From Halorubrum rubrum (GTDB taxonomy: Archaea; Halobacteriota; Halobacteria; Halobacteriales; Haloferacaceae): 64,000 nt of DNA. Made by a program: the position numbers and the translations under genes. The notes below the pieces were generated by a model. That model ran no database searches, was not told where the DNA came from, and saw nothing but the letters and a program-made list of their open reading frames with translations. Where the stretch lies: assembly GCF_024494685.1 (NCBI RefSeq), contig NZ_JANHDM010000001.1, positions 62,001 to 126,000 of the forward strand, read 5' to 3'. Shown here piece after piece: positions 43,504-56,016 of the stretch. The first letter of the stretch is position 1; the number at the start of each line of letters is the position of its first letter.

Positions 43504-44772
43504 ATGAAGGCGTTCGGCGACGAGGACACGATCTTCGAGGACATGGACGTCCTCAACCCCAACGAGCAGACGTATCAGCCCGAGTCGCTGCCGGAGCGCG
43601 AGGTCGAACTCGATCAGATCCACTCTGCCCTCCGTCCGGCGACGATGGGCTCGACGCCACTCAACCTGATCGTATACGGTCAATCCGGGCAGGGGAAGAC
43701 CGTCGGAATCCGTCTCAAGACCGACCAGCTCCAGGAATATGCTGACGACTCCGAGATGGACCTCACCGTGGTTCACATTCGTTGTAAGGGCATGGACGGC
43801 TCCTACCACGTCCTGACGCATCTCGTCAAGCGGCTCCGTGAGAAGCGATTCGGCCCCGGTGAGGAGCTCCCGAGCGGTCACCAGCGGAAGACCCTCCTCA
43901 ACATGGTGATCGGGAACCTGGAGCAGGTCGGCGGAACGGTCATCGTCGTCCTCGACGAGATCGACGCCATCGGCGACGACGACTACATCCTCTACGAGCT
44001 CCCGCGGTCGAATCCGGACGGCGTCCGCCTCTCACTCATCGGGATCACGAACGATCTCCAGTTCCGCGAGAACCTCGACGCCGACGTCCGGTCGAGTCTC
44101 GGCGAGGATGAGGTTCGTTTCGAACCGTACGACGCTGATCAGCTCCGCAATATCCTCGCACGGCGTGCCGTCGGTGCCCTCCGGGACACGTATTTCCAGG
44201 ACGACATCGAGGACTACCAGCATCTCCGAAGTGAGATCCTGAGCGACGATACGATCCCGCTTGCTGCGGCGTTAGGCGCACAGGATACGGGAGACGCTCG
44301 CGAGGCGATCCGTCTGCTGTTCCGTGCAACCCGGTTTGCCGACGATAGGGGTGAGACGACCGTCACAGAGGAGCACGTGCGTGAAGCACGTGACTTCCTC
44401 GAGACGAAGGCCATCGAGTCAGGGATTCAGACACTCCCGAATCAACGAATGCTCGCGCTCATGGCGGTTACGTATCACGGAATACACGACGACACACCCG
44501 TGACGACGACGCCGATCTACACCCAGTACAAGACCTTCTGTGAGCACGTGGAGGTGAACGTCCTCTCGAACCGCCGGTTCCGTGACCGGCTCAACGATCT
44601 CGCCGATACGAACGTGCTCAATAAGCGGCAGGGTCGGGGTCGTGGCGACGAGAATCAGTACTCGCTTGCGGTCGATCTTGATACGGCGCTCGAGAACCTC
44701 CCGAAGGAATCGGAGCGGCTCGGGGTCGTTGCAAAGGTTCTTCGAGAACAGGGCGGTGTTACAGATAACTGA
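43504..44772 (+). CDS. Orc1/Cdc6-type replication initiator ATPase
   Basis: 422 aa. The AAA+ core has Walker A GQSGQGKT (residues 59-66) and Walker B VIVVLDEIDAIG, sensor 1 in LIGITNDLQF, and EAIRLLFRATRFA as the sensor-2 helix. The C-terminus is a winged helix (about 315-400) for origin binding. Haloarchaea have many orc genes, several carried by plasmids or integrated elements. It lies between a decayed gene and a CRISPR array; an origin might be in the AT-rich upstream gap, but I saw no convincing repeated ORB motifs. Confidence 0.9.
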   Translation: MKAFGDEDTIFEDMDVLNPNEQTYQPESLPEREVELDQIHSALRPATMGSTPLNLIVYGQSGQGKTVGIRLKTDQLQEYADDSEMDLTVVHIRCKGMDGSYHVLTHLVKRLREKRFGPGEELPSGHQRKTLLNMVIGNLEQVGGTVIVVLDEIDAIGDDDYILYELPRSNPDGVRLSLIGITNDLQFRENLDADVRSSLGEDEVRFEPYDADQLRNILARRAVGALRDTYFQDDIEDYQHLRSEILSDDTIPLAAALGAQDTGDAREAIRLLFRATRFADDRGETTVTEEHVREARDFLETKAIESGIQTLPNQRMLALMAVTYHGIHDDTPVTTTPIYTQYKTFCEHVEVNVLSNRRFRDRLNDLADTNVLNKRQGRGRGDENQYSLAVDLDTALENLPKESERLGVVAKVLREQGGVTDN

Positions 44773-44824: not shown

Positions 44825-47207
44825 GTTTCAATCCCATGCTGGGGTTTTCAGGCTGTCTCGACGCTAACTGAAGGAACGCCGGAAGTGATCTGATAAGGTT
44901 TCAATCCCGTGCTGGGTTTTCAGGCTGTCTCGACATGACGCTCGGCGACGTCGCCCGGAGCGCCGTCGAGTTTCAATCCCGTGCTGGGTTTTCAGGCTGT
45001 CTCGACACCGGAGTTGACACATCATGAACGACGAGCAACAGCAGGTTTCAATCCCGTGCTGGGTTTTCAGGCTGTCTCGACTTGACCCGAGATGGATATC
45101 TGTAACTGAATCTTTTAGTTTCAATCCCGTGCTGGGTTTTCAGGCTGTCTCGACAGCGGTCCGCCACCAGTCGACGTGACAGAGCCCACAGTTTCAATCC
45201 CGTGCTGGGTTTTCAGGCTGTCTCGACTGATGTTCATCCGCCGCCAAACGTGATGAAGGAGGTTTCAATCCCGTGCTGGGTTTTCAGGCTGTCTCGACGC
45301 GATCGACGACGAACTCGACACGTCGTTCGCGAAAGTTTCAATCCCGTGCTGGGTTTTCAGGCTGTCTCGACCTCCGGTCGAAACAGCCACGCCGCCGTCA
45401 ACAAGTTTCAATCCCGTGCTGGGTTTTCAGGCTGTCTCGACTGCTTTGGAACGTTGGGTTGTCGATGGCCTTATCGTTTCAATCCCGTGCTGGGTTTTCA
45501 GGCTGTCTCGACAGCCGCCGATCGTCGCGTACGTCTCTCCCTGCGGTGAGTTTCAATCCCGTGCTGGGTTTTCAGGCTGTCTCGACCCGAACCCGAGTTC
45601 GGGCTGGAGGACCCCGACGTGTCGTTTCAATCCCGTGCTGGGTTTTCAGGCTGTCTCGACGCATCGCCGACCGAGGCAGCCGGGGCATCGTGCTGGTTTC
45701 AATCCCGTGCTGGGTTTTCAGGCTGTCTCGACGGACGCGGTCGTCGCCCGCCGTCTGCCACACTTCGTTTCAATCCCGTGCTGGGTTTTCAGGCTGTCTC
45801 GACCGACCCGCGAGAGAACGCGATCGACGTGTACGCCGCGTTTCAATCCCGTGCTGGGTTTTCAGGCTGTCTCGACCTTCGAGACGCGACTCGGGCGGTG
45901 CCGCCGCGTCCCGGTTTCAATCCCGTGCTGGGTTTTCAGGCTGTCTCGACCCGCGGTCATGGCGCGACCCTGACGCCGACGACGAGTTTCAATCCCGTGC
46001 TGGGTTTTCAGGCTGTCTCGACCGGCGGTGGATCGAACGGCAGGGCGTTCGTGAAACCGTTTCAATCCCGTGCTGGGTTTTCAGGCTGTCTCGACTCCCA
46101 CGCCGTCCCACCGTATCCCACGGAAGGCTTTGTTTCAATCCCGTGCTGGGTTTTCAGGCTGTCTCGACGTCGTCTCGTCGCCGCCCCAGTTGATCGCAGG
46201 CAGTTTCAATCCCGTGCTGGGTTTTCAGGCTGTCTCGACCGCGTCACGACCGCCCCCAATACATGACTGAAAAGTTTCAATCCCGTGCTGGGTTTTCAGG
46301 CTGTCTCGACCTCGCTGGCGAAATCGTCGACTGGATGAGCCAAGAGTTTCAATCCCGTGCTGGGTTTTCAGGCTGTCTCGACGTGCCCGCGGTGTGGCAA
46401 CGATACGGCCACGAACTCGTTTCAATCCCGTGCTGGGTTTTCAGGCTGTCTCGACATAGACGAATGACCCATATGTGTTTTCACTACCGAGTCGTTTCAA
46501 TCCCGTGCTGGGTTTTCAGGCTGTCTCGACGATATCCCAGCGTGTCGAATATCAACCCGATAGTATTGTTTCAATCCCGTGCTGGGTTTTCAGGCTGTCT
46601 CGACCACCACGGAACCCATAGCCACGATTAGGATGAAGAAGTTTCAATCCCGTGCTGGGTTTTCAGGCTGTCTCGACCGGAAACGACGCTACCGCCGTCC
46701 CATTCGTTAATCGTGTTTCAATCCCGTGCTGGGTTTTCAGGCTGTCTCGACCGAACCCGAGTTCGGGCTGGAGGGCCCCGACGTGTCGTTTCAATCCCGT
46801 GCTGGGTTTTCAGGCTGTCTCGACCGCCCGCCGCGATCTGATATACGTCCCCGTTATAGTTTCAATCCCGTGCTGGGTTTTCAGGCTGTCTCGACACCCG
46901 GAACCCCGTCCATAAAGTCAGCTTTCACCGACGTTTCAATCCCGTGCTGGGTTTTCAGGCTGTCTCGACCGGCACGGACGACCCGAACGAGTCCCGGCTC
47001 GTCGTGTTTCAATCCCGTGCTGGGTTTTCAGGCTGTCTCGACGTTAGAAGGTTCTAAACTGGTAGTCGTGGCGAACCCGTTTCAATCCCGTGCTGGGTTT
47101 TCAGGCTGTCTCGACTCCGAAGCCTCATCAAAGAGGATAAACGCATTTTTCCCTTCTTCGCTAGCGTCAGGTTTCAATCCCGTGCTGGGTTTTCAGGCTG
47201 TCTCGAC
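44825..47207 (-). CRISPR. Type I-D CRISPR array: 33 repeats, 32 spacers
   Basis: The 37-nt repeat on the plus strand begins GTTTCAATCCCGTGCTGG and ends GGCTGTCTCGAC. Its reverse complement ends ATTGAAAC, the usual 5' handle source, so crRNA is read leftwards and the leader is at the right. The leader-distal repeat (44825-44862) is degenerate: 38 nt with a G-to-A change and an extra G. All other repeats are identical as far as I can read. Spacers are 33-38 nt except the leader-proximal one (47116-47170, 55 nt). Spacers at 45587-45623 and 46752-46787 are near-duplicates. Confidence 0.98.
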
Positions 47208-47322
47208 AGGGGGTGAAATTACGGCTATAGAGGTCAAAAAGGTTTCTCAACCCTCGAATTTCGACCCCGGTTACGTCGATGGGGGCTGTACAGGAACTTA
47301 ATAAGGGTCCACGTAGCTCAAC
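47208..47322 (-). promoter_or_regulatory. CRISPR leader
   Basis: 115 nt between cas2 and the first repeat. The minus strand has a TATA-like CTTATTAAG near 47297-47305, about 90-98 nt before the first repeat, which could drive the pre-crRNA. New spacers should be inserted at its border with 47207. Confidence 0.7.
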
Positions 47323-47601
47323 TCAGAGAACGTTGGACTGTTCGTCGGGCGGATCCGATCCGAGATCGGTCGTGTTGTCTTGACAGGACTCACATAGACG
47401 ATAGATCCGGATGCGATCACCGTCGGACGGTTCGATATGCGATTCGAGATCGTCCTCAAGCTCGACACGTTCCGCCTTCGTCACGTCGACTTCGAAAACA
47501 CTGTATTGCCGCCACGCGCCATACCGCTGGAGTGTTCGATACACTCGTCGGCGGTTCGCATCCTCACTCACGTCGTAGGCGATCGCCAAGCGCATAGTCA
47601 T
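47323..47601 (-). CDS. cas2: CRISPR-associated endonuclease Cas2
   Basis: 92 aa. The ferredoxin-fold start MRLAIAYDVSEDANRRRVYRTL holds the catalytic-type Asp, followed by YGAWRQYSVFEVDV and DRIRIYRLCESC. It forms the adaptation complex with Cas1. The ATG at 47601 overlaps the cas1 stop (ATGA); a second Met two codons on (47595) is also possible. It is the last cas gene before the leader. Confidence 0.93.
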   Translation of the reverse strand: MTMRLAIAYDVSEDANRRRVYRTLQRYGAWRQYSVFEVDVTKAERVELEDDLESHIEPSDGDRIRIYRLCESCQDNTTDLGSDPPDEQSNVL

Positions 47602-48593
47602 TTCGAGAACGTCAACGCGTGATACTCGTCCAGTTCACCAGTGATCGCTTTCCGCAACAGGATCGCTTGCTGCCGGACTGCCTTCCGTCGCGAAACAGTA
47701 TACTCGAAGTACGGATGAGTGAACTCCTCCTGCATGAACTCGTCGAACTTCGAACAGTAGGTCTTGAACGCATCATCGGACAGATGGTTGTCCTGCGTGA
47801 ACTGATCATGATCGATAACCCCCCGGTTCACCAACCGGGTAACGAACGCATCACAGAAGATCGGTCTGAACTCCTCCTGTAAGTCAAGCGCCAGTGAAGG
47901 ACGACCGTGCCGGTCAGCGTGTAGGACGCCCAAGAACGGATCGAGGTTGTACTGTCTGAGCGCACTCATGACCTCGTTTTTCATGAACACGTAGGTCAAC
48001 GAGAGCAGCGAATTGATGTGATCCTCCGGTGGTCGTTTCGTCCGCTTCTCGAAGGTCCAACCATCAGTCAGCGTCTCATCCAATCGACTAAAGTATCGCT
48101 CACCAGCCTCCCCCTCAACGCCCCGGAGATCGTCTTTCGTCTCGACGTTCGTCGCCCGAACACCGAGATCCTTGAGCACATCCGTTCCATACACACCCTT
48201 CCGCGAGAGCAACGTCCGAGCGTTCCGGATCTTGCCAGCGATCATCGACGCCGCGATATCCAACTCAGCCACCTCACCGAGTGCGTACTGGGCACGTCGA
48301 ACCTCCGCAATCGTGTTCTTTTCGGGAACGAAACTTCCACGATACTTACCGTTCTGAGTGAAGTAATTCAGAATAATTCCGTGTTCGTTGGCCTCGGCTA
48401 CGAACGGTGTCGAGAAGTTCACGCCACCGAAGACGTTGATCGTGTCGAGCTTTTCCGTCGGGAACGTAGCAAGTTCGCCTTCATCACCATCGACATCCCA
48501 GACCACGATGCGGCCGCCGTCGGTTCTGACCTGAGTGCCCTGTTTGGTGACGTAGACGACCGACTCATCAAACATCCCCTCCGTGGCCTTCAT
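47598..48593 (-). CDS. cas1: CRISPR-associated integrase Cas1
   Basis: 331 aa. The N-terminal beta domain (VYVTKQGTQVRTDGG) leads to the helical catalytic domain with the conserved Glu in SLLSLTYVFMKNEVMSAL, His in FLGVLHADRHGRPSLALDL, and the Asp/Glu in LDLQEEFRPIFCDA. It integrates spacers at the leader end with Cas2, assisted by Cas4. It is flanked by 4-nt overlaps on both sides. Confidence 0.96.
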   Translation of the reverse strand: MKATEGMFDESVVYVTKQGTQVRTDGGRIVVWDVDGDEGELATFPTEKLDTINVFGGVNFSTPFVAEANEHGIILNYFTQNGKYRGSFVPEKNTIAEVRRAQYALGEVAELDIAASMIAGKIRNARTLLSRKGVYGTDVLKDLGVRATNVETKDDLRGVEGEAGERYFSRLDETLTDGWTFEKRTKRPPEDHINSLLSLTYVFMKNEVMSALRQYNLDPFLGVLHADRHGRPSLALDLQEEFRPIFCDAFVTRLVNRGVIDHDQFTQDNHLSDDAFKTYCSKFDEFMQEEFTHPYFEYTVSRRKAVRQQAILLRKAITGELDEYHALTFSK

Positions 48594-49183
48594 ACCTCAC
48601 CCTCCCAACCCGTACCACGGGCTTTCTTAGGCTCCAAAATAGCCGTCTCCTCGGGCATACAGTACTCCCGTGCCGAACACGCCTCGCACTTCGAGGGGTT
48701 ATCCGTGAGTGGCGGGATACCATCGACGGTCATCGATCGCATCGTCTCTATCTGATCTCGAACTGTTTCTCGATGAGATTCAGTTATCGGAATGTGCATT
48801 CGCTGATCCGTTTCGTAGAGATATATCGCACCTTGCCGCACAGGCTCATCGAGATGTTCTTCGAGTAGCATACAGTAGCCAGCCAACTGTACTTCATCAC
48901 TTTTGTAGTAATCACCACTCTCCGCACGTTTTCGCTCAATCGGAATGATCTGCCCGTCCGTAGAATCGAGAATATCGATCTTTCCCTTCAATCCGATCTC
49001 TTCGGATTCGAGATAGAGTTCGTTAACCCAATCACCTCGTGTTGATTGGTTTTCGTGCTTCGTCTTGCCTTCAACTCGTTCGTAGTTCCGGCCTTGTGTG
49101 TCGTAGAAATGTAAGTACCAATACCGACGTTGACAGTATGAAAATTGATTGAGATCCGCGACATTGATCAGGTCATCAGTCAT
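48590..49183 (-). CDS. cas4: CRISPR-associated exonuclease Cas4
   Basis: 197 aa. The RecB-like nuclease motifs are GLKGKIDILD, IPIERKR and QLAGYCMLLEE. Four Cys for the 4Fe-4S cluster come from FSYCQRRYW near the start and CEACSAREYC near the end. Cas4 trims prespacers and helps select PAM and orientation. It overlaps cas3 and cas1 by 4 nt, as expected of an adaptation module. Confidence 0.95.
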   Translation of the reverse strand: MTDDLINVADLNQFSYCQRRYWYLHFYDTQGRNYERVEGKTKHENQSTRGDWVNELYLESEEIGLKGKIDILDSTDGQIIPIERKRAESGDYYKSDEVQLAGYCMLLEEHLDEPVRQGAIYLYETDQRMHIPITESHRETVRDQIETMRSMTVDGIPPLTDNPSKCEACSAREYCMPEETAILEPKKARGTGWEGEV

Positions 49184-51078
49184 ATTTGACGCGCTTGGAC
49201 ATCGATTTCCGGAGGACCATTTGTGTCGCTGTCAATCTCGATATCGTACTCGGAAGTCGTTATCCGAGATGGAATAATCGCATCGACGATGCGGATGATC
49301 TCGAAAAAGCGGTGTAACAACTCTGTCGATACCGAGAACTCCTCGTTCAAATCAGCTTGATCGATGTGCCGATGGATCTTCGTTTGGAGTAATCGCTCTA
49401 TCTCAGTCGTCGACTGATCGTACTTAGTCGGCTCTGTCTCATATGCTGGGAGACGTGCCGTTACGGTAGAGAGAATATCGTCGTCTGACAATCCTAAAAC
49501 CAGAGTATCATCGTCATCAACGTCCACAATGTCGTAATTCCGAAGTGTCGTTGAGAGGTCATAGGTTGTGACACCACGTTGATCTCCACGAGGATATTTT
49601 ATCGATGACGACAACGACCGTCCTCGGAGACCTCGGAAGGTTTTGAAACACTCTTTGGTAAACTCAAGTAGTTTCGCTTCGGGACTGTTCTGCTGGTATT
49701 TTCCAGGACCGAATCCATCTTTTATTTCCTCATACTCGGCGTTGACTGCTTGAATAAATCCGTACCACTGATCGTATTTGTCGATATTTGTCTCGAAATC
49801 TTCGCGCAATTCCTGATTGAACCAGCTTGAACTCTCCTCACGTTCGGCAATCGCATAGGCAGCTCGAAAGCCGACAAGATCAGCTAATCGATTCTGATTC
49901 ATCTGCGTTGATTCTAATCCCTCATAGACCTGTTCAGCAAAGGTGGGAAAGTCGACGTCCTCACCCCACGGGCCTTGTCCAAGGCCGTAGATATCGACGG
50001 TTGCTTCCGACTGACGGCCGGCACGACCGAACCGCTGGAGAAACGCGCTCGCGGTGAATGGTTTCTCCATATACAGTGTCGTTATGTCATAATCAAGTCC
50101 GACTTCACCCTTACTGGTTGTATTGAGAATATAGAAATCCGTTTCATCGAGATCAACCGCTTCGTCATTCGTGTCAAACCCGTTGTCCTTAGCGGTGTGC
50201 TCGAAGACGGTTGGGTACTCACGGTAGAGGAAATCGTGAAAGTCGTTGCTGTCTTTTGCGCTATTGAACACCAAGACTATTTGTGGCTCATCGTAGTCCT
50301 CGACTGCGTCGATTTTGTCCTGTAGTTCTGAGGCGATCTCGTCTCGGCAATCGATGATCTTCCTGTCCTCGTGCCTCCGTACGAACATACGATGCCGGAA
50401 TTGATCGCCGTCTGAATCGTACTCGCTATCGATATCTCGAACTGTCATCCCGATACGTTCACGCAGAAAGCGTACAAACTCTTCGTTTGGGGTCGCAGAT
50501 GCGAGGAGTATCTTTGGGTCCGGCTGACGTTCCTCTATGATTTTGATCTGTAACAAGAGGCCACTTGCTGAAAGAGCGCCATAGAAATGGAATTCGTCGT
50601 AGACTATTGCATCGAATTTATTGAAAAATCGCATCGGATCACTCCCGAGATACATGTCCTGAATAGCTGCCTGAAGGATATCGGGATTAGTCAGCACCGC
50701 ATCGTAATCGGTTGCGTACTTATTGACGAAACTAAGCAACTGCTCTGTCCGTTCGTGTCCATGTCCGTCCAACGTATTCGCGTTGAGAACAGCGACATCA
50801 ACATCGTCGTCTTCAAATCGCTCTCGTTGTTGTCGGAGGAGGGCGTTTGTCGGGTAGACGAGAAGAGTCATATCACGCGACTCAATGAGTTCATAGAAAG
50901 TTGCTGTCTTACCCGCTCCTGTGGGAGCACGGACGACCGAAACTGGATCTTTCCCGTGCTGAATCCATTCGATGACCCTGTTTTGGAACGCACGAGCGTA
51001 TTCGAAGCCACGCTCTTCAAGCGGTGGCTGAGGTGGCTCTGTCGCCAAACTCGCACCGTCAACCTCGAATCCAGTCAT
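49180..51078 (-). CDS. cas3: Type I-D Cas3 helicase (Cas3', no HD domain)
   Basis: 632 aa, superfamily 2 helicase. Walker A is APTGAGKT at 51-58, motif II is YDEFHFY (DEFH rather than DEAH), motif III is SATP, and motif VI is in FGRAGRQSE. No N-terminal HD nuclease domain is present; in type I-D systems that activity is fused to Cas10d, whose gene is in this operon with an HD signature. It should unwind target DNA ahead of Cas10d cutting. Confidence 0.92.
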   Translation of the reverse strand: MTGFEVDGASLATEPPQPPLEERGFEYARAFQNRVIEWIQHGKDPVSVVRAPTGAGKTATFYELIESRDMTLLVYPTNALLRQQRERFEDDDVDVAVLNANTLDGHGHERTEQLLSFVNKYATDYDAVLTNPDILQAAIQDMYLGSDPMRFFNKFDAIVYDEFHFYGALSASGLLLQIKIIEERQPDPKILLASATPNEEFVRFLRERIGMTVRDIDSEYDSDGDQFRHRMFVRRHEDRKIIDCRDEIASELQDKIDAVEDYDEPQIVLVFNSAKDSNDFHDFLYREYPTVFEHTAKDNGFDTNDEAVDLDETDFYILNTTSKGEVGLDYDITTLYMEKPFTASAFLQRFGRAGRQSEATVDIYGLGQGPWGEDVDFPTFAEQVYEGLESTQMNQNRLADLVGFRAAYAIAEREESSSWFNQELREDFETNIDKYDQWYGFIQAVNAEYEEIKDGFGPGKYQQNSPEAKLLEFTKECFKTFRGLRGRSLSSSIKYPRGDQRGVTTYDLSTTLRNYDIVDVDDDDTLVLGLSDDDILSTVTARLPAYETEPTKYDQSTTEIERLLQTKIHRHIDQADLNEEFSVSTELLHRFFEIIRIVDAIIPSRITTSEYDIEIDSDTNGPPEIDVQARQI

Positions 51079-51779
51079 TCGAGAACCTCCGGAAGCACTT
51101 GTTTACGAGTAAATTCAGGATCGACACCAACGAAATGTTGTAACCGCGGATCGTTACCACGATTAAATGCTTGACTGCGTTCAACCATTTCGGTAAGCAA
51201 CTCATCAGAAAGCTCGTACACTTCCGAAAGCAGGTATTTGTTGAGGACAAGCGTATCCAGTTCGGTGGGTTCAGCACGAAACTCTCCTGTTTGCTTGATC
51301 CCCATGCGGAAGAACGGATGCTCTGGAAGTTCCATCTCGCCCCAGATGGTGAATTCGAATTTCGATCCGGGAGAGATCCCAATGTAGTTTCGAATCGTCT
51401 GGTACGCAGCACCTGATCTTTCGAGGATTTCTGGAACAGACTTGCTTCCGGAGATCTGACCAGCGACATCGGGGTCGTTCGTTGTAAAATGCCGTTCAGA
51501 TCGGTAATCGGTACTGCGGAACGTTCGTTCGTCGGTGTCCACAGCTATTGGACGCATATCCGTGACGAAGAACGGTAGTTCCCTGAGATGTGAGTAATCA
51601 GCCGTCGTCGCTTCGTCACCGAACTCCGCATACCGTTTTTCCAGTTCGAAGTAGCGGTAGCCGAGTGCGTACATGAGTGCTGTCGACGAGAGAGTCGGCT
51701 GTGTCCGTATTGCGCGCCCCTCCGAACTGGAGTAAAAAAGCGGCGCGTACAACGTTGCCTCGAAGGTCTGTTCAATCAT
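51075..51779 (-). CDS. csc1: Type I-D Cas5 (Csc1)
   Basis: 234 aa. The RAMP-type start EQTFEATLYAPLFYSSSEGRAI is followed by QPTLSSTALMYALGYRYF. Position between csc2 and cas3 and overlap with both (8 and 4 nt) identify it as Csc1, which caps the crRNA 5' end in the I-D effector. Confidence 0.88.
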   Translation of the reverse strand: MIEQTFEATLYAPLFYSSSEGRAIRTQPTLSSTALMYALGYRYFELEKRYAEFGDEATTADYSHLRELPFFVTDMRPIAVDTDERTFRSTDYRSERHFTTNDPDVAGQISGSKSVPEILERSGAAYQTIRNYIGISPGSKFEFTIWGEMELPEHPFFRMGIKQTGEFRAEPTELDTLVLNKYLLSEVYELSDELLTEMVERSQAFNRGNDPRLQHFVGVDPEFTRKQVLPEVLE

Positions 51780-52713
51780 CGTCGATGAAGATGTCTGTAG
51801 CTGCCTCCATTAGATCTGTAAACTCCTCTCGGAGTATTTCGTCAGCATCGGTTACTTCCCGACTGGCAACTGCTTCCAATCGTTCAAACCAGTCCGGGAA
51901 CGGATCAGCACCATCGAATTCACCATAGACCTCCCAATCCGTACGCTGGACCGTCGAAATATAATCCCCAATACTCGCTTCGAGATTGTCTCCTTCGTCA
52001 TGGAACTCAAGTAGAAGTTCACCAGTCGACAGAGACGTATCATGGTTCCCGAGAATGACACCGAGAATCTCGTTTCGAATATTCCGTCCTGTCCGTGTTT
52101 CACGAGCTCCGTACTTCCCGGTATTGAGGATGTTATGAAGCGTGTAGAGTAGCATCGGACCGGTCGCCGCTTCGAGAGTGATGAAATGAACGAGATCGTT
52201 TCCGGGCTGTACCTTCACGAAGTCGAACAAAGCCTCGGATTGGTTGCCTTCATCATCTCTCATCGTTCCCGATTCGTAGACAGCATTCCGGGTTTCCTTA
52301 TTCATTAGGTCGTACTCCTCGGTCGTGTACGTGTAGCCTTCCACAACTCGTGATTTGATGGCGAAGTCCTGGTCCCCAGTTCCTGCCAGCCCGTAGGTTA
52401 GGGTTCCAACGTTCAGCGAACTTTCGAGATCCGTGGGTTCGTTGTACGCGTAGTCATCATCAACGAAGTCGTCATCAAGCTCTCTGAGTAGCGAAAGACC
52501 AGTCAACCGTTCCTTGCTGGTGAATTTCTCGCCGTTGACCTGTGCGTGTAGCTTGTCGCCGAATTCCTGTGTTTCAGCACGGTCGTGACTGGAGTTGCGG
52601 AACAGAGTCGGCTCTGTTACGTTTCGTTTGACGACGAGTGTGACCGAGGGCTTTCGCTTACGGTAGATGTCGAACGATTCTTCGAGGCCTGTTGGTGGGT
52701 ATTGGAGTGTCAT
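51772..52713 (-). CDS. csc2: Type I-D Cas7 (Csc2) backbone subunit
   Basis: 313 aa from ATG 52713, 7 nt after the cas10d stop. The start LQYPPTGLEESFDIYRKRKP is a Csc2 beginning; a longer frame to 52971 runs inside cas10d and is not used. The Cas7-like central part includes TYTTEEYDLMNKETRNAVYE. Csc2 coats the crRNA and contacts target DNA, as several copies in the effector. It overlaps csc1 by 8 nt. Confidence 0.9.
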   Translation of the reverse strand: MTLQYPPTGLEESFDIYRKRKPSVTLVVKRNVTEPTLFRNSSHDRAETQEFGDKLHAQVNGEKFTSKERLTGLSLLRELDDDFVDDDYAYNEPTDLESSLNVGTLTYGLAGTGDQDFAIKSRVVEGYTYTTEEYDLMNKETRNAVYESGTMRDDEGNQSEALFDFVKVQPGNDLVHFITLEAATGPMLLYTLHNILNTGKYGARETRTGRNIRNEILGVILGNHDTSLSTGELLLEFHDEGDNLEASIGDYISTVQRTDWEVYGEFDGADPFPDWFERLEAVASREVTDADEILREEFTDLMEAATDIFIDDD

Positions 52714-52720
52714 TGTCGGA

Positions 52721-55153
52721 TTATAGTGATTGCTCGTATGCGTAGTAGTACGAGTTGACCAGTGCGTTCTCCCAGTCGGAGAGCTTCTTGAGGTCGTACA
52801 GATCGTTTTCGACGAGGTATTCGCGGATCGCCTCAACGAAGGCTTTGGCCTGTTCAGGCGTTGCGTGTCCCGCGTAATCTTCTCGATCAGCAGCGGCGTA
52901 CACCTGGCTCTCGACGTACTCAATAAGCCGGTCATCATCCATCTGCTGGTTCTTTCCGCTGAGGAAGGCATCGAGTGCCTCGCGGAATATTTTTGTTTTC
53001 TTATACTTGCTGTCGAACTGTTTACCGAAGAGGTCGATACCTCGTTCGGCGACGGTTTTCATTTCCATGAATTCGGTTTCATGATAGTTTTCGAAGTACT
53101 CTTTGAGGTCTGTCAGCCTGACTGCGTGGTCGTGGTTGACAACCGCGAAGTTCGCAATGCTGTGGAACGTGTCACGGTCGAGTTGGAGGTACGGATTGCT
53201 CATACCAGCATCCTGTCCGACCATGCTCATGAGTTTGAACAGCTGGAGTGCGCGCCGAAGGTGGGAATCGGTTCGGTCGTTCTCAATGAACGACGGTAGT
53301 GGCCCAAACCGTTCGGCTTCATCCAGCCCGAGGAGTTCTTGTGGTCGGGTGGTCTCCTCGTCAGCGAAGACCGCATCCGCGCTTTCAAAGCGCGTGAACG
53401 GCCGTCCGATGACCACCTTCATCCCTGATTCCTGGGCGGCTCGCATCACCTGCCGAACCACCGCCATACGGTGGTTTTCGTCCAGCACGTAAACCGGCTG
53501 GAGGAAGTACTGCGGTTGGATGAGACTGTTTGCTATCTCCGGATCGTCCAGTTCATCTCCATCTCCCTGAACGATATTCCCAACGCGGTTACTCCGTAGT
53601 CGAACATCGCCGAGGAAATCATCGAAATAGAAGTAGGCGATCTCAAGACTGTTGTTGGTACTTACATCGTACTGCTCACAGATAGAGGAGAGAAGTGCAT
53701 ATTCGAGGTTACAGACTTCACAAATGGATTTGTATTTCGCGTGAGGTGGAACACGGCGTGAGTATTCCTGTGTCCGGTAGACAGCACTCAATCCTTTCTG
53801 GTATTTAGTGTCCGCCTGTGCCCCACAGAGGAAACACATCTCATCCTTCGAACCGAGAGCCGGAGCGATCCGTCCCTCGAAGAGGCGGTCTACGACAGCC
53901 CCGATCGCGTCGATCTCAGGTTCAAGATCATCATGGAGAGAGTGCTGTACTTCATCACGCAAAATTTCCAAATCAGATCTGTAGTCTTCATAATTCTCAC
54001 AAAGATGTGCGAGAAATTGTACCTTCACTTTCTGTCCTTTGGTGCTTTTTCCCCCTTCGATGGAATCATACACCTCATTGAATGTGGTAGTTAGCCTCTC
54101 TGTGGGGTATTCCTTCCACCCATTCTCATATATCGCTTTGATTAGTACTGGAAGGTATTCCTCAAATCCATCTGGAACGCGCTCAAAAGAATCATCTCGG
54201 CCAGAGCCGGATTTGAGTAGATTCTTCGCTTTTTGTCGGATATTCTCCTCTTTTCTCTCTACAGGTATTGCAATTTCTTCAAGGATATCATAATCAAATG
54301 AATTCCAAGTGAGCTTACACTCGAACTGAAACGTACTGATCTGATCTGGAACACGTTCGGCAACGGCTTCTTTCAATGTTGATCGGTCAATAGGTTCGCC
54401 GAGATAGACGATTGAATCTGGAGAGCTACCGACGATGACACCGTAAGTATGATCCCCGATTTCACCTGCAATGACTTCTTTTGCCGTCCCCAGTAGTGTA
54501 TCGTTCAAAATCGGTTGTTCAAGTCGAGTGAACTCGATACGCTGAACATCTTCAGTACTCATTAAGGTGCTGAGCTGATCATGGACACCTTCAACACCCT
54601 GTTTGAGCGCGACAGAGGCAGTACTATCCCCGATTCGGCAGTAGCGTTCTAATCCGTTGAATGAAGTGGCAACTCCTCGTGTCTCGGTACTGTTTTCTCT
54701 CGTTTCAGTCCGTTGTACGAGATACTGTAGATCGTCTCGGTAACCTTCACCGAGGAAGTCTTCTATGCCGAACGGGTCACCGTCTCGGTCTTCTCCATCT
54801 TTGTCCGGTCCCGGATCAAAATACCAGTTGAACGCTTCGCTGGTGTTGCCCTCGACATCGATGCCGTAAGCTTCGCGTACAAATTTATCCGTATCATGGA
54901 GAGCAAGTGCGGCAGCGAGAACCTGTACATCCTCGCCGTAATCTTCATACAAGTCTTCGTCCTCTCCCACAGCTTCGTAGACAAATGCGTTCACACCAAC
55001 CGTGACCGCGTTCAGTATATGCGCCGCCAGAGAACAGTTCGCGGAGGAATCGACTTTCGCATCATACTGTCCAGCCGCATCAATGACGTTCGCATAGAGA
55101 TCTGTACTCCCAACGATCGTTTCATGCGCGTCACGAGCAGCATCCGGATTCAT
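52721..55153 (-). CDS. cas10d: Type I-D large subunit Cas10d (Csc3)
   Basis: 810 aa. The N-terminal HD-type nuclease has His45 in SLAAHILNAV and the His86-Asp87 pair in LALHDTDKF. A zinc finger CFLCG...CEVC lies near the middle (about residues 435-475), in the Cas10 arrangement, without the GGDD cyclase motif of type III Cas10. This HD-plus-zinc large subunit is the hallmark of type I-D. GC is low here compared with the core. It overlaps cas6 by 4 nt. Confidence 0.92.
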   Translation of the reverse strand: MNPDAARDAHETIVGSTDLYANVIDAAGQYDAKVDSSANCSLAAHILNAVTVGVNAFVYEAVGEDEDLYEDYGEDVQVLAAALALHDTDKFVREAYGIDVEGNTSEAFNWYFDPGPDKDGEDRDGDPFGIEDFLGEGYRDDLQYLVQRTETRENSTETRGVATSFNGLERYCRIGDSTASVALKQGVEGVHDQLSTLMSTEDVQRIEFTRLEQPILNDTLLGTAKEVIAGEIGDHTYGVIVGSSPDSIVYLGEPIDRSTLKEAVAERVPDQISTFQFECKLTWNSFDYDILEEIAIPVERKEENIRQKAKNLLKSGSGRDDSFERVPDGFEEYLPVLIKAIYENGWKEYPTERLTTTFNEVYDSIEGGKSTKGQKVKVQFLAHLCENYEDYRSDLEILRDEVQHSLHDDLEPEIDAIGAVVDRLFEGRIAPALGSKDEMCFLCGAQADTKYQKGLSAVYRTQEYSRRVPPHAKYKSICEVCNLEYALLSSICEQYDVSTNNSLEIAYFYFDDFLGDVRLRSNRVGNIVQGDGDELDDPEIANSLIQPQYFLQPVYVLDENHRMAVVRQVMRAAQESGMKVVIGRPFTRFESADAVFADEETTRPQELLGLDEAERFGPLPSFIENDRTDSHLRRALQLFKLMSMVGQDAGMSNPYLQLDRDTFHSIANFAVVNHDHAVRLTDLKEYFENYHETEFMEMKTVAERGIDLFGKQFDSKYKKTKIFREALDAFLSGKNQQMDDDRLIEYVESQVYAAADREDYAGHATPEQAKAFVEAIREYLVENDLYDLKKLSDWENALVNSYYYAYEQSL

Positions 55154-56016
55154 TGATCAGTCACCTCTGTAGTAATATCACCACATCCGCGAGCAACGGC
55201 ACTTCCGACACCTGAGTACTCACCGAATAACGCGAGTGCGGTCACCGCGTTCTGTACGGAGTCACTTGCGTCTTTGAACGCGTACTCACAGGTACCTGAA
55301 AATCCCTGTCGAAATATCGGACGGGCGTTCCCGTCGCTGTCGTCGACACGGTTCACGAGCACGCTGTGAGTCCGATAGCTTCGGGCATCGGGTTTCTCGA
55401 TCACCGACGCGGCCAATGTCTCGCGATCGATGTCGAGTTCCAGCTCATCCGGAGCCGTCTTGTTCCACTTGCCGAGCAAGCTCGAAAACACAGCCGTCCG
55501 AGTCGGGAACATCGTTGTCACCGAGCCAGCCTCCTCGATACACGTCGCCGTCCGAAACTCGATCTCGACGCTCGGGTCATCGTGAGCCGCCGCCTCCGAG
55601 AGCAACGTCTCATGGGACGTGTTTTCACTCTCGAACGAATCGATGTGGAGCCGGCCGTGCGTCAGTTCAAGTGGTTCGTCGGCGAGAACCAACGCCGAGA
55701 CGAGTCCCTCGAAGATCGCCTCATCCTCGGGATCGGTGATGCCGAGCGCAAGCCTGTACTCGCTATCGGGGAGTACGCGTTTGTGGTGAGAACGGTTGCC
55801 CTCGCCGAACGGTCCCTGAAGCCCGCTGTTGTGAAGGCTTCCGATCTCCGAGTCGTGGACACGGGCACTGACGTCTTCGTCCGCCGACTCCAACAGGGCC
55901 AACAGCGCGCTGTAAACCGAATAGCCGTCGGACTGTGGTACGTCGAATCGCTCGTCGGAATGGAGCGATAATTCGACCTGTCGAAGACGGCTCGCCGATT
56001 CCGAATGGGTTTCCAT
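55150..56016 (-). CDS. cas6: CRISPR RNA endoribonuclease Cas6
   Basis: 288 aa. Two ferredoxin-like halves; the C-terminal Cas6 signature with glycine-rich loops is FRQGFSGTCEYAFKD followed by ALFGEYSGVGSAVARGCGDI. It cuts within the repeat so each crRNA keeps the 8-nt ATTGAAAC handle. It is the first gene of the cas operon, with a TATA-like TTTTATG 33-39 nt upstream of its ATG. Confidence 0.92.
   Translation of the reverse strand: METHSESASRLRQVELSLHSDERFDVPQSDGYSVYSALLALLESADEDVSARVHDSEIGSLHNSGLQGPFGEGNRSHHKRVLPDSEYRLALGITDPEDEAIFEGLVSALVLADEPLELTHGRLHIDSFESENTSHETLLSEAAAHDDPSVEIEFRTATCIEEAGSVTTMFPTRTAVFSSLLGKWNKTAPDELELDIDRETLAASVIEKPDARSYRTHSVLVNRVDDSDGNARPIFRQGFSGTCEYAFKDASDSVQNAVTALALFGEYSGVGSAVARGCGDITTEVTDQ

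Follow-up and report, generated by a model that had tools for sequence, protein, structure and literature searches.

In type I-D CRISPR systems, the PAM end of a new spacer is trimmed by Cas4 and the opposite end by a different nuclease (PMC10212523). The type I-D Cascade flips out every sixth base, counted from position one, and mismatches are allowed at these positions; the same review describes priming in type I-D as an open question for which there are no data (PMC10212523). In laboratory acquisition by type I-F, spacers of variant length stem mainly from inaccurate cutting at the PAM-distal end (PMC5059440). In the type I-B system of Haloarcula hispanica, which uses a TTC PAM, an existing spacer with a partial match to a virus drives additional spacer uptake (PMC3936756).

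The window, a 64,000-nucleotide stretch of Halorubrum rubrum DNA, carries a type I-D CRISPR locus with two near-duplicate spacers in one array. A complete type I-D cas operon on the minus strand lies to the right of the array and comprises Cas10d, Csc1/Cas5d together with Csc2/Cas7d, as well as Cas3', Cas1d, Cas2, Cas4d and Cas6d. Type I-B, the more usual CRISPR type of haloarchaea, had been assumed from the tail of the repeat and was ruled out by gene models, which gave type I-D. Starting from the array, the operon consists of:

47323..47601, minus strand, cas2 (PF09827, E=7e-21)
47598..48593, minus strand, cas1d (PADLOC Cas1d, E=2e-146)
48590..49183, minus strand, cas4d (PADLOC Cas4d, E=3e-111)
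49180..51078, minus strand, cas3', the type I-D helicase (Cas3d, E=0; TIGR03158 over the cut-off)
51075..51779, minus strand, cas5d/csc1 (Cas5d, E=3e-137; NCBIfam match below the cut-off)
51772..52971, minus strand, cas7d/csc2 (Cas7d, E=2e-186; NCBIfam TIGR03157 over the cut-off); its start codon is uncertain and, as listed, it overlaps cas10d
52721..55153, minus strand, cas10d, the large subunit (Cas10d PDLC01191 and PDLC02022, E=0)
55150..56016, minus strand, cas6d (Cas6d, E=3e-135)

The array is read on the minus strand, as indicated by the GGGATTGAAAC ending of its repeat in that orientation, by the location of cas2 and the presumed leader (from 47208) at one end and by a decayed repeat at the other. 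The repeat is 37 nt long (GTCGAGACAGCCTGAAAACCCAGCACGGGATTGAAAC in crRNA orientation) and occurs in 32 perfect copies. The array and its relevant parts are:

44826..47207, minus strand, CRISPR array with 33 repeats and 32 spacers, 32 of the repeats being identical
47208..47322, minus strand, presumed leader between cas2 and the first repeat, assigned from position only
46752..46787, minus strand, spacer 6 from the leader (newer copy), 36 nt, GACACGTCGGGGCCCTCCAGCCCGAACTCGGGTTCG in crRNA orientation
45587..45623, minus strand, spacer 22 from the leader (older copy), 37 nt, GACACGTCGGGGTCCTCCAGCCCGAACTCGGGTTCGG in crRNA orientation
44826..44863, minus strand, degenerate leader-distal repeat with one substitution and one inserted G, marking the old end of the array

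All spacers other than the leader-adjacent one are 33-38 nt long (mostly 34-37 nt). The newest, leader-adjacent spacer (47116-47170) is 55 nt long, far beyond this range, and is possibly an aberrant capture. Seven genomes of the genus carry an apparently single conserved chromosomal site that agrees with spacer 31 (44935-44969) at 25-28 of its 35 bases, and this spacer may derive from a host-like gene. Spacer 27 (45228-45261) matches a site in G137 (L032) reading LLHHAWRRMNI at 29 of its 34 bases; this site may be related to the true target. Directly past the old end of the array lies an orc1/cdc6 replication initiator gene (43504-44772).

Spacers 6 and 22 share one end and differ at a single internal base and in length. 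Both begin with GACACGTCGGGG... in the transcribed orientation and they match at 35 of 36 positions, with position 13 being C in spacer 6 and T in spacer 22 (A/G on the other strand). Spacer 6 is one base shorter at the 3', PAM-distal end, and the extra base of spacer 22 falls within a short C run (CCC versus CC on the plus strand). From the polarity of the array, we infer that the shared first base represents the PAM side. Both spacers are flanked by perfect 37-nt repeats, and their respective neighbors (spacers 5/7 and 21/23) are unrelated to each other. A sequence-only reading of the window had given the coordinates and lengths of the pair exactly, and the extra C and the A/G difference it described are both present, at the PAM-distal end and at position 13, respectively; the spacing of 16 it reported is borne out as a difference in position, with 15 spacers in between. 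Its description of the two captures as offset by one base does not hold: the PAM-side ends are identical and only the length differs, at the far end, so that the captured site is not shifted. It also took a coding target to be likely; as all six frames are open across the pair and no protospacer was found in the collections searched, this is not established. The frame reading EPEFGLE(D/G)PDV is one of these six in a GC-rich stretch, and HVG(V/A)LQPELGF, read from the opposite strand, is about as plausible, with comparably good GC at third positions.

Both protospacers were sought in viral, phage, plasmid and genome collections and none was found. Searches with codon-degenerate patterns of three frames and with the nucleotide core returned no protospacer in viral_contigs, none among phages and plasmids, and only a single match in genome_contigs, to an unrelated Dehalococcoidales MAG. 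Neither the same genome, with three mismatches allowed, nor 170 family and 392 order genomes contain a protospacer of the pair, and genus genomes searched with the spacers of the array yielded no convincing protospacer for any spacer of the window. The sequence-only reading had expected both variants in related elements; neither source variant was seen in the collections searched. Several candidate targets were rejected. A plasmid gene of Halorubrum sp. BOL3-1 matches at only 28 of 37 positions in an acidic low-complexity stretch, L180 shows 10 or more mismatches and has a different real reading frame, viral contigs L012-L022 were discarded on inspection, and the sites in G116, G135 and G137 (25-27 matches over 36-37 positions) are at chance level over 52 genomes.

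Near-duplicate spacers in related arrays fall into two classes, and the window pair belongs squarely to the isolated one. As a baseline, we used cas1 neighborhoods of family and order relatives, detected arrays by script and compared spacers within arrays. This yielded 6,045 spacers (773 type I-D and 5,272 type I-B, with type set by repeat length) in 143 arrays and 123 loci, counts slightly inflated by a locus that a single genome carries twice (L123 and L124). Pairs were classed as tandem or collinear (duplicates) or as isolated (at least 85% identity). The 92 tandem or collinear pairs were plainly made by recombination within the array, and 87 of them are identical with equal length. Among 51 isolated pairs, 39 differ in sequence or length and 12 are identical, a difference in identity between the classes with a Fisher p=5e-19, pairs of one array not being mutually independent. 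Where the ends of isolated pairs are unequal (n=30), the PAM end is common in 29 and the far end in one (p=6e-8); leaving out locus L084 does not change the result (27/28 share the PAM end). The sole exception, L107 17/19, is a hairpin-rich sequence that also occurs on a plasmid, close to a TnpB gene. Base and length changes are combined in 11 isolated pairs and in one duplicate-class pair. The window pair shows isolated copies, unrelated neighbors, the same PAM-side first base and a variable far end, all features of re-acquisition.

Individual baseline loci show further variation. Spacers 82/84 of L057 closely resemble the window pair, with lengths of 37 and 36 nt, one C/T difference and the extra base at the far end; no variants of this pair were found in viral_contigs. 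Spacer 23 of L099 and spacer 44 of L100, from two genomes of genus g57, hold one protospacer with the same PAM-side start at 38 and 37 nt, which suggests a favored capture site. In L084 (G085, type I-B, three arrays), the differences within isolated pairs are concentrated on the first one or two bases (A/C/T before TCCAGCTGATCC being one example), which looks as though the target did not fix the opening base of the spacer; some repeats there end in N in the assembly. L047 (G121, matching Halorubrum lacusprofundi plasmid NC_012030.1) is a type I-D array of 75 spacers with clear array duplications, block 1-9 recurring at ca. 26-35 and block 67-70 at 71-74. In G325, contig C4 carries a whole type I-B locus twice (L123 and L124), with near-identical spacers ca. 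364 kb apart. Across sibling I-B pairs, 16 of 33 mismatches fall in positions 1-10 (p=0.009, post hoc and not independent), while neither mismatches at multiples of six (p=0.09) nor codon-phase agreement (p=0.13) are significant in these pairs.

A sibling pair with a known viral target displays the same arrangement. Spacers 14 and 18 of L145, an isolated type I-B pair, match the tail tube gene of Halorubrum tailed virus 29. TTC, a known haloarchaeal I-B PAM (PMC3936756), directly abuts their shared first base in the virus and the shared end is therefore the PAM end. The extra base of the longer member is the next viral base. The two spacers disagree at positions 15 and 18, where the virus carries the bases of spacer 18, and the virus differs from both at positions 5 and 25; both spacers encode the same peptide at the target. 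This case shows, in a relative rather than in the window itself, the behavior proposed for the window pair.

Two separate uptake events from variants of one target, rather than array duplication, very probably gave rise to the window pair. The sequence-only reading had favored this explanation based on the differing neighbors; it is now the best supported one, through the baseline of related arrays and the L145 pair as well. A precise cut at the PAM side would account for the common first base, less exact trimming at the far end could yield 37 nt in one event and 36 nt in the other, and the single C/T difference would represent a polymorphism of the target. The copy at position 22 from the leader would be the older record and that at position 6 the newer. 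The 32 perfect repeats (1,184 nt) are free of mutations, and at a uniform rate both changes would arise in the 73-nt pair by random mutation with p ~0.003, an argument weakened by the fact that repeats may be under selection or homogenized. As counterpoints, neither spacer matched a protospacer in the collections searched, isolated copies can perhaps also arise by rearrangement, given that 12 of the 51 isolated pairs are identical, and a slippage deletion in the C run is a possible source of the length difference.

Alternatively, sister lineages could each have captured one spacer, with recombination at identical repeats later joining both in one array. Haloarchaea recombine readily, all full repeats of the array are identical, and L099 and L100 indicate that separate lineages do capture the same site. 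This history is nevertheless unlikely, as it needs an extra step and no donor array was seen, with no spacer of the array common to 51 other species of the genus. It is very unlikely that unequal recombination copied the spacer within the array and that one substitution and the loss of one C by slippage followed. Array duplications are common in the relatives and the length change does lie in a C run, but such duplicates are nearly always identical and adjacent or in blocks, whereas the two window spacers are neither adjacent nor part of a collinear block of identical, equal-length spacers; their neighbors differ and 0/32 full repeats are mutated. An assembly or sequencing artefact, with the spacers really identical or misplaced, is extremely unlikely: the draft genome consists of 25 contigs and two repeat-spacer-repeat units of ca. 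110 nt that are two changes apart are hard for short reads, but two kinds of difference occur at two sites and the same PAM-anchored pattern recurs many times in assemblies of relatives. Even for GC-rich haloarchaeal DNA with biased codon usage, chance resemblance of unrelated protospacers or a motif repeated within one target has a negligible probability, given the in-register agreement, a local alignment score of 34 compared to no more than 12 for any other spacer pair of the array, and a near-zero cross-array background (5,946 spacers) in which very few same-start pairs reach at least 80% identity and the best ones resemble real shared targets.

Under separate uptake, the position of the base difference bears on how the second spacer could have been gained. 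Position 13 falls on the flipped-out series, a one-in-six coincidence, and also lies outside the seed; the two guides are thus predicted to recognize each other's targets. If the I-D numbering applies here, spacer 22 is expected to remain active against the variant behind spacer 6, and the second uptake would seem to have added to existing immunity rather than to have restored it after an escape. Interference-driven uptake, a new naive acquisition and the joining of arrays from two lineages are all routes that could lead to such a second record. That the older spacer recognized the returning element and that its own interference drove the second uptake, leaving a footprint of primed adaptation in type I-D, is a tentative and on balance doubtful proposal. 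If true, near-duplicates anchored at the PAM side could serve across whole genomes as a log of invaders that came back.

The pair is genuine but unremarkable, as repeat captures are common in haloarchaeal arrays and not a rarity; its type I-D context is mildly interesting. At least one isolated pair is present in 28 of the 123 haloarchaeal loci, so that repeated encounters with variants of one element remain legible in the arrays. Near-duplicate spacers are easily mistaken for array duplications or noise. Duplications can be told by identical, equal-length copies that are adjacent or in blocks, and re-captures by isolated copies with the PAM end in common and length or base changes, the former at the far end.

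Compared to known systems, the locus agrees with type I-D as reviewed (PMC10212523) in its full gene set including Cas4, its 37-nt repeat with the same ending and its spacer lengths, and no difference was found among the features tested. The PAM criterion for type I-D systems is 5'-GTN or GTH. The priming system of Haloarcula hispanica type I-B (PMC3936756) is similar in its TTC PAM, the motif also found beside the L145 sibling pair. The fixed PAM-side end and variable far end are shared with type I-F acquisition (PMC5059440), the difference being that the type I-F spacers were acquired in the laboratory whereas the pairs described here occur naturally, in type I-D and type I-B arrays.
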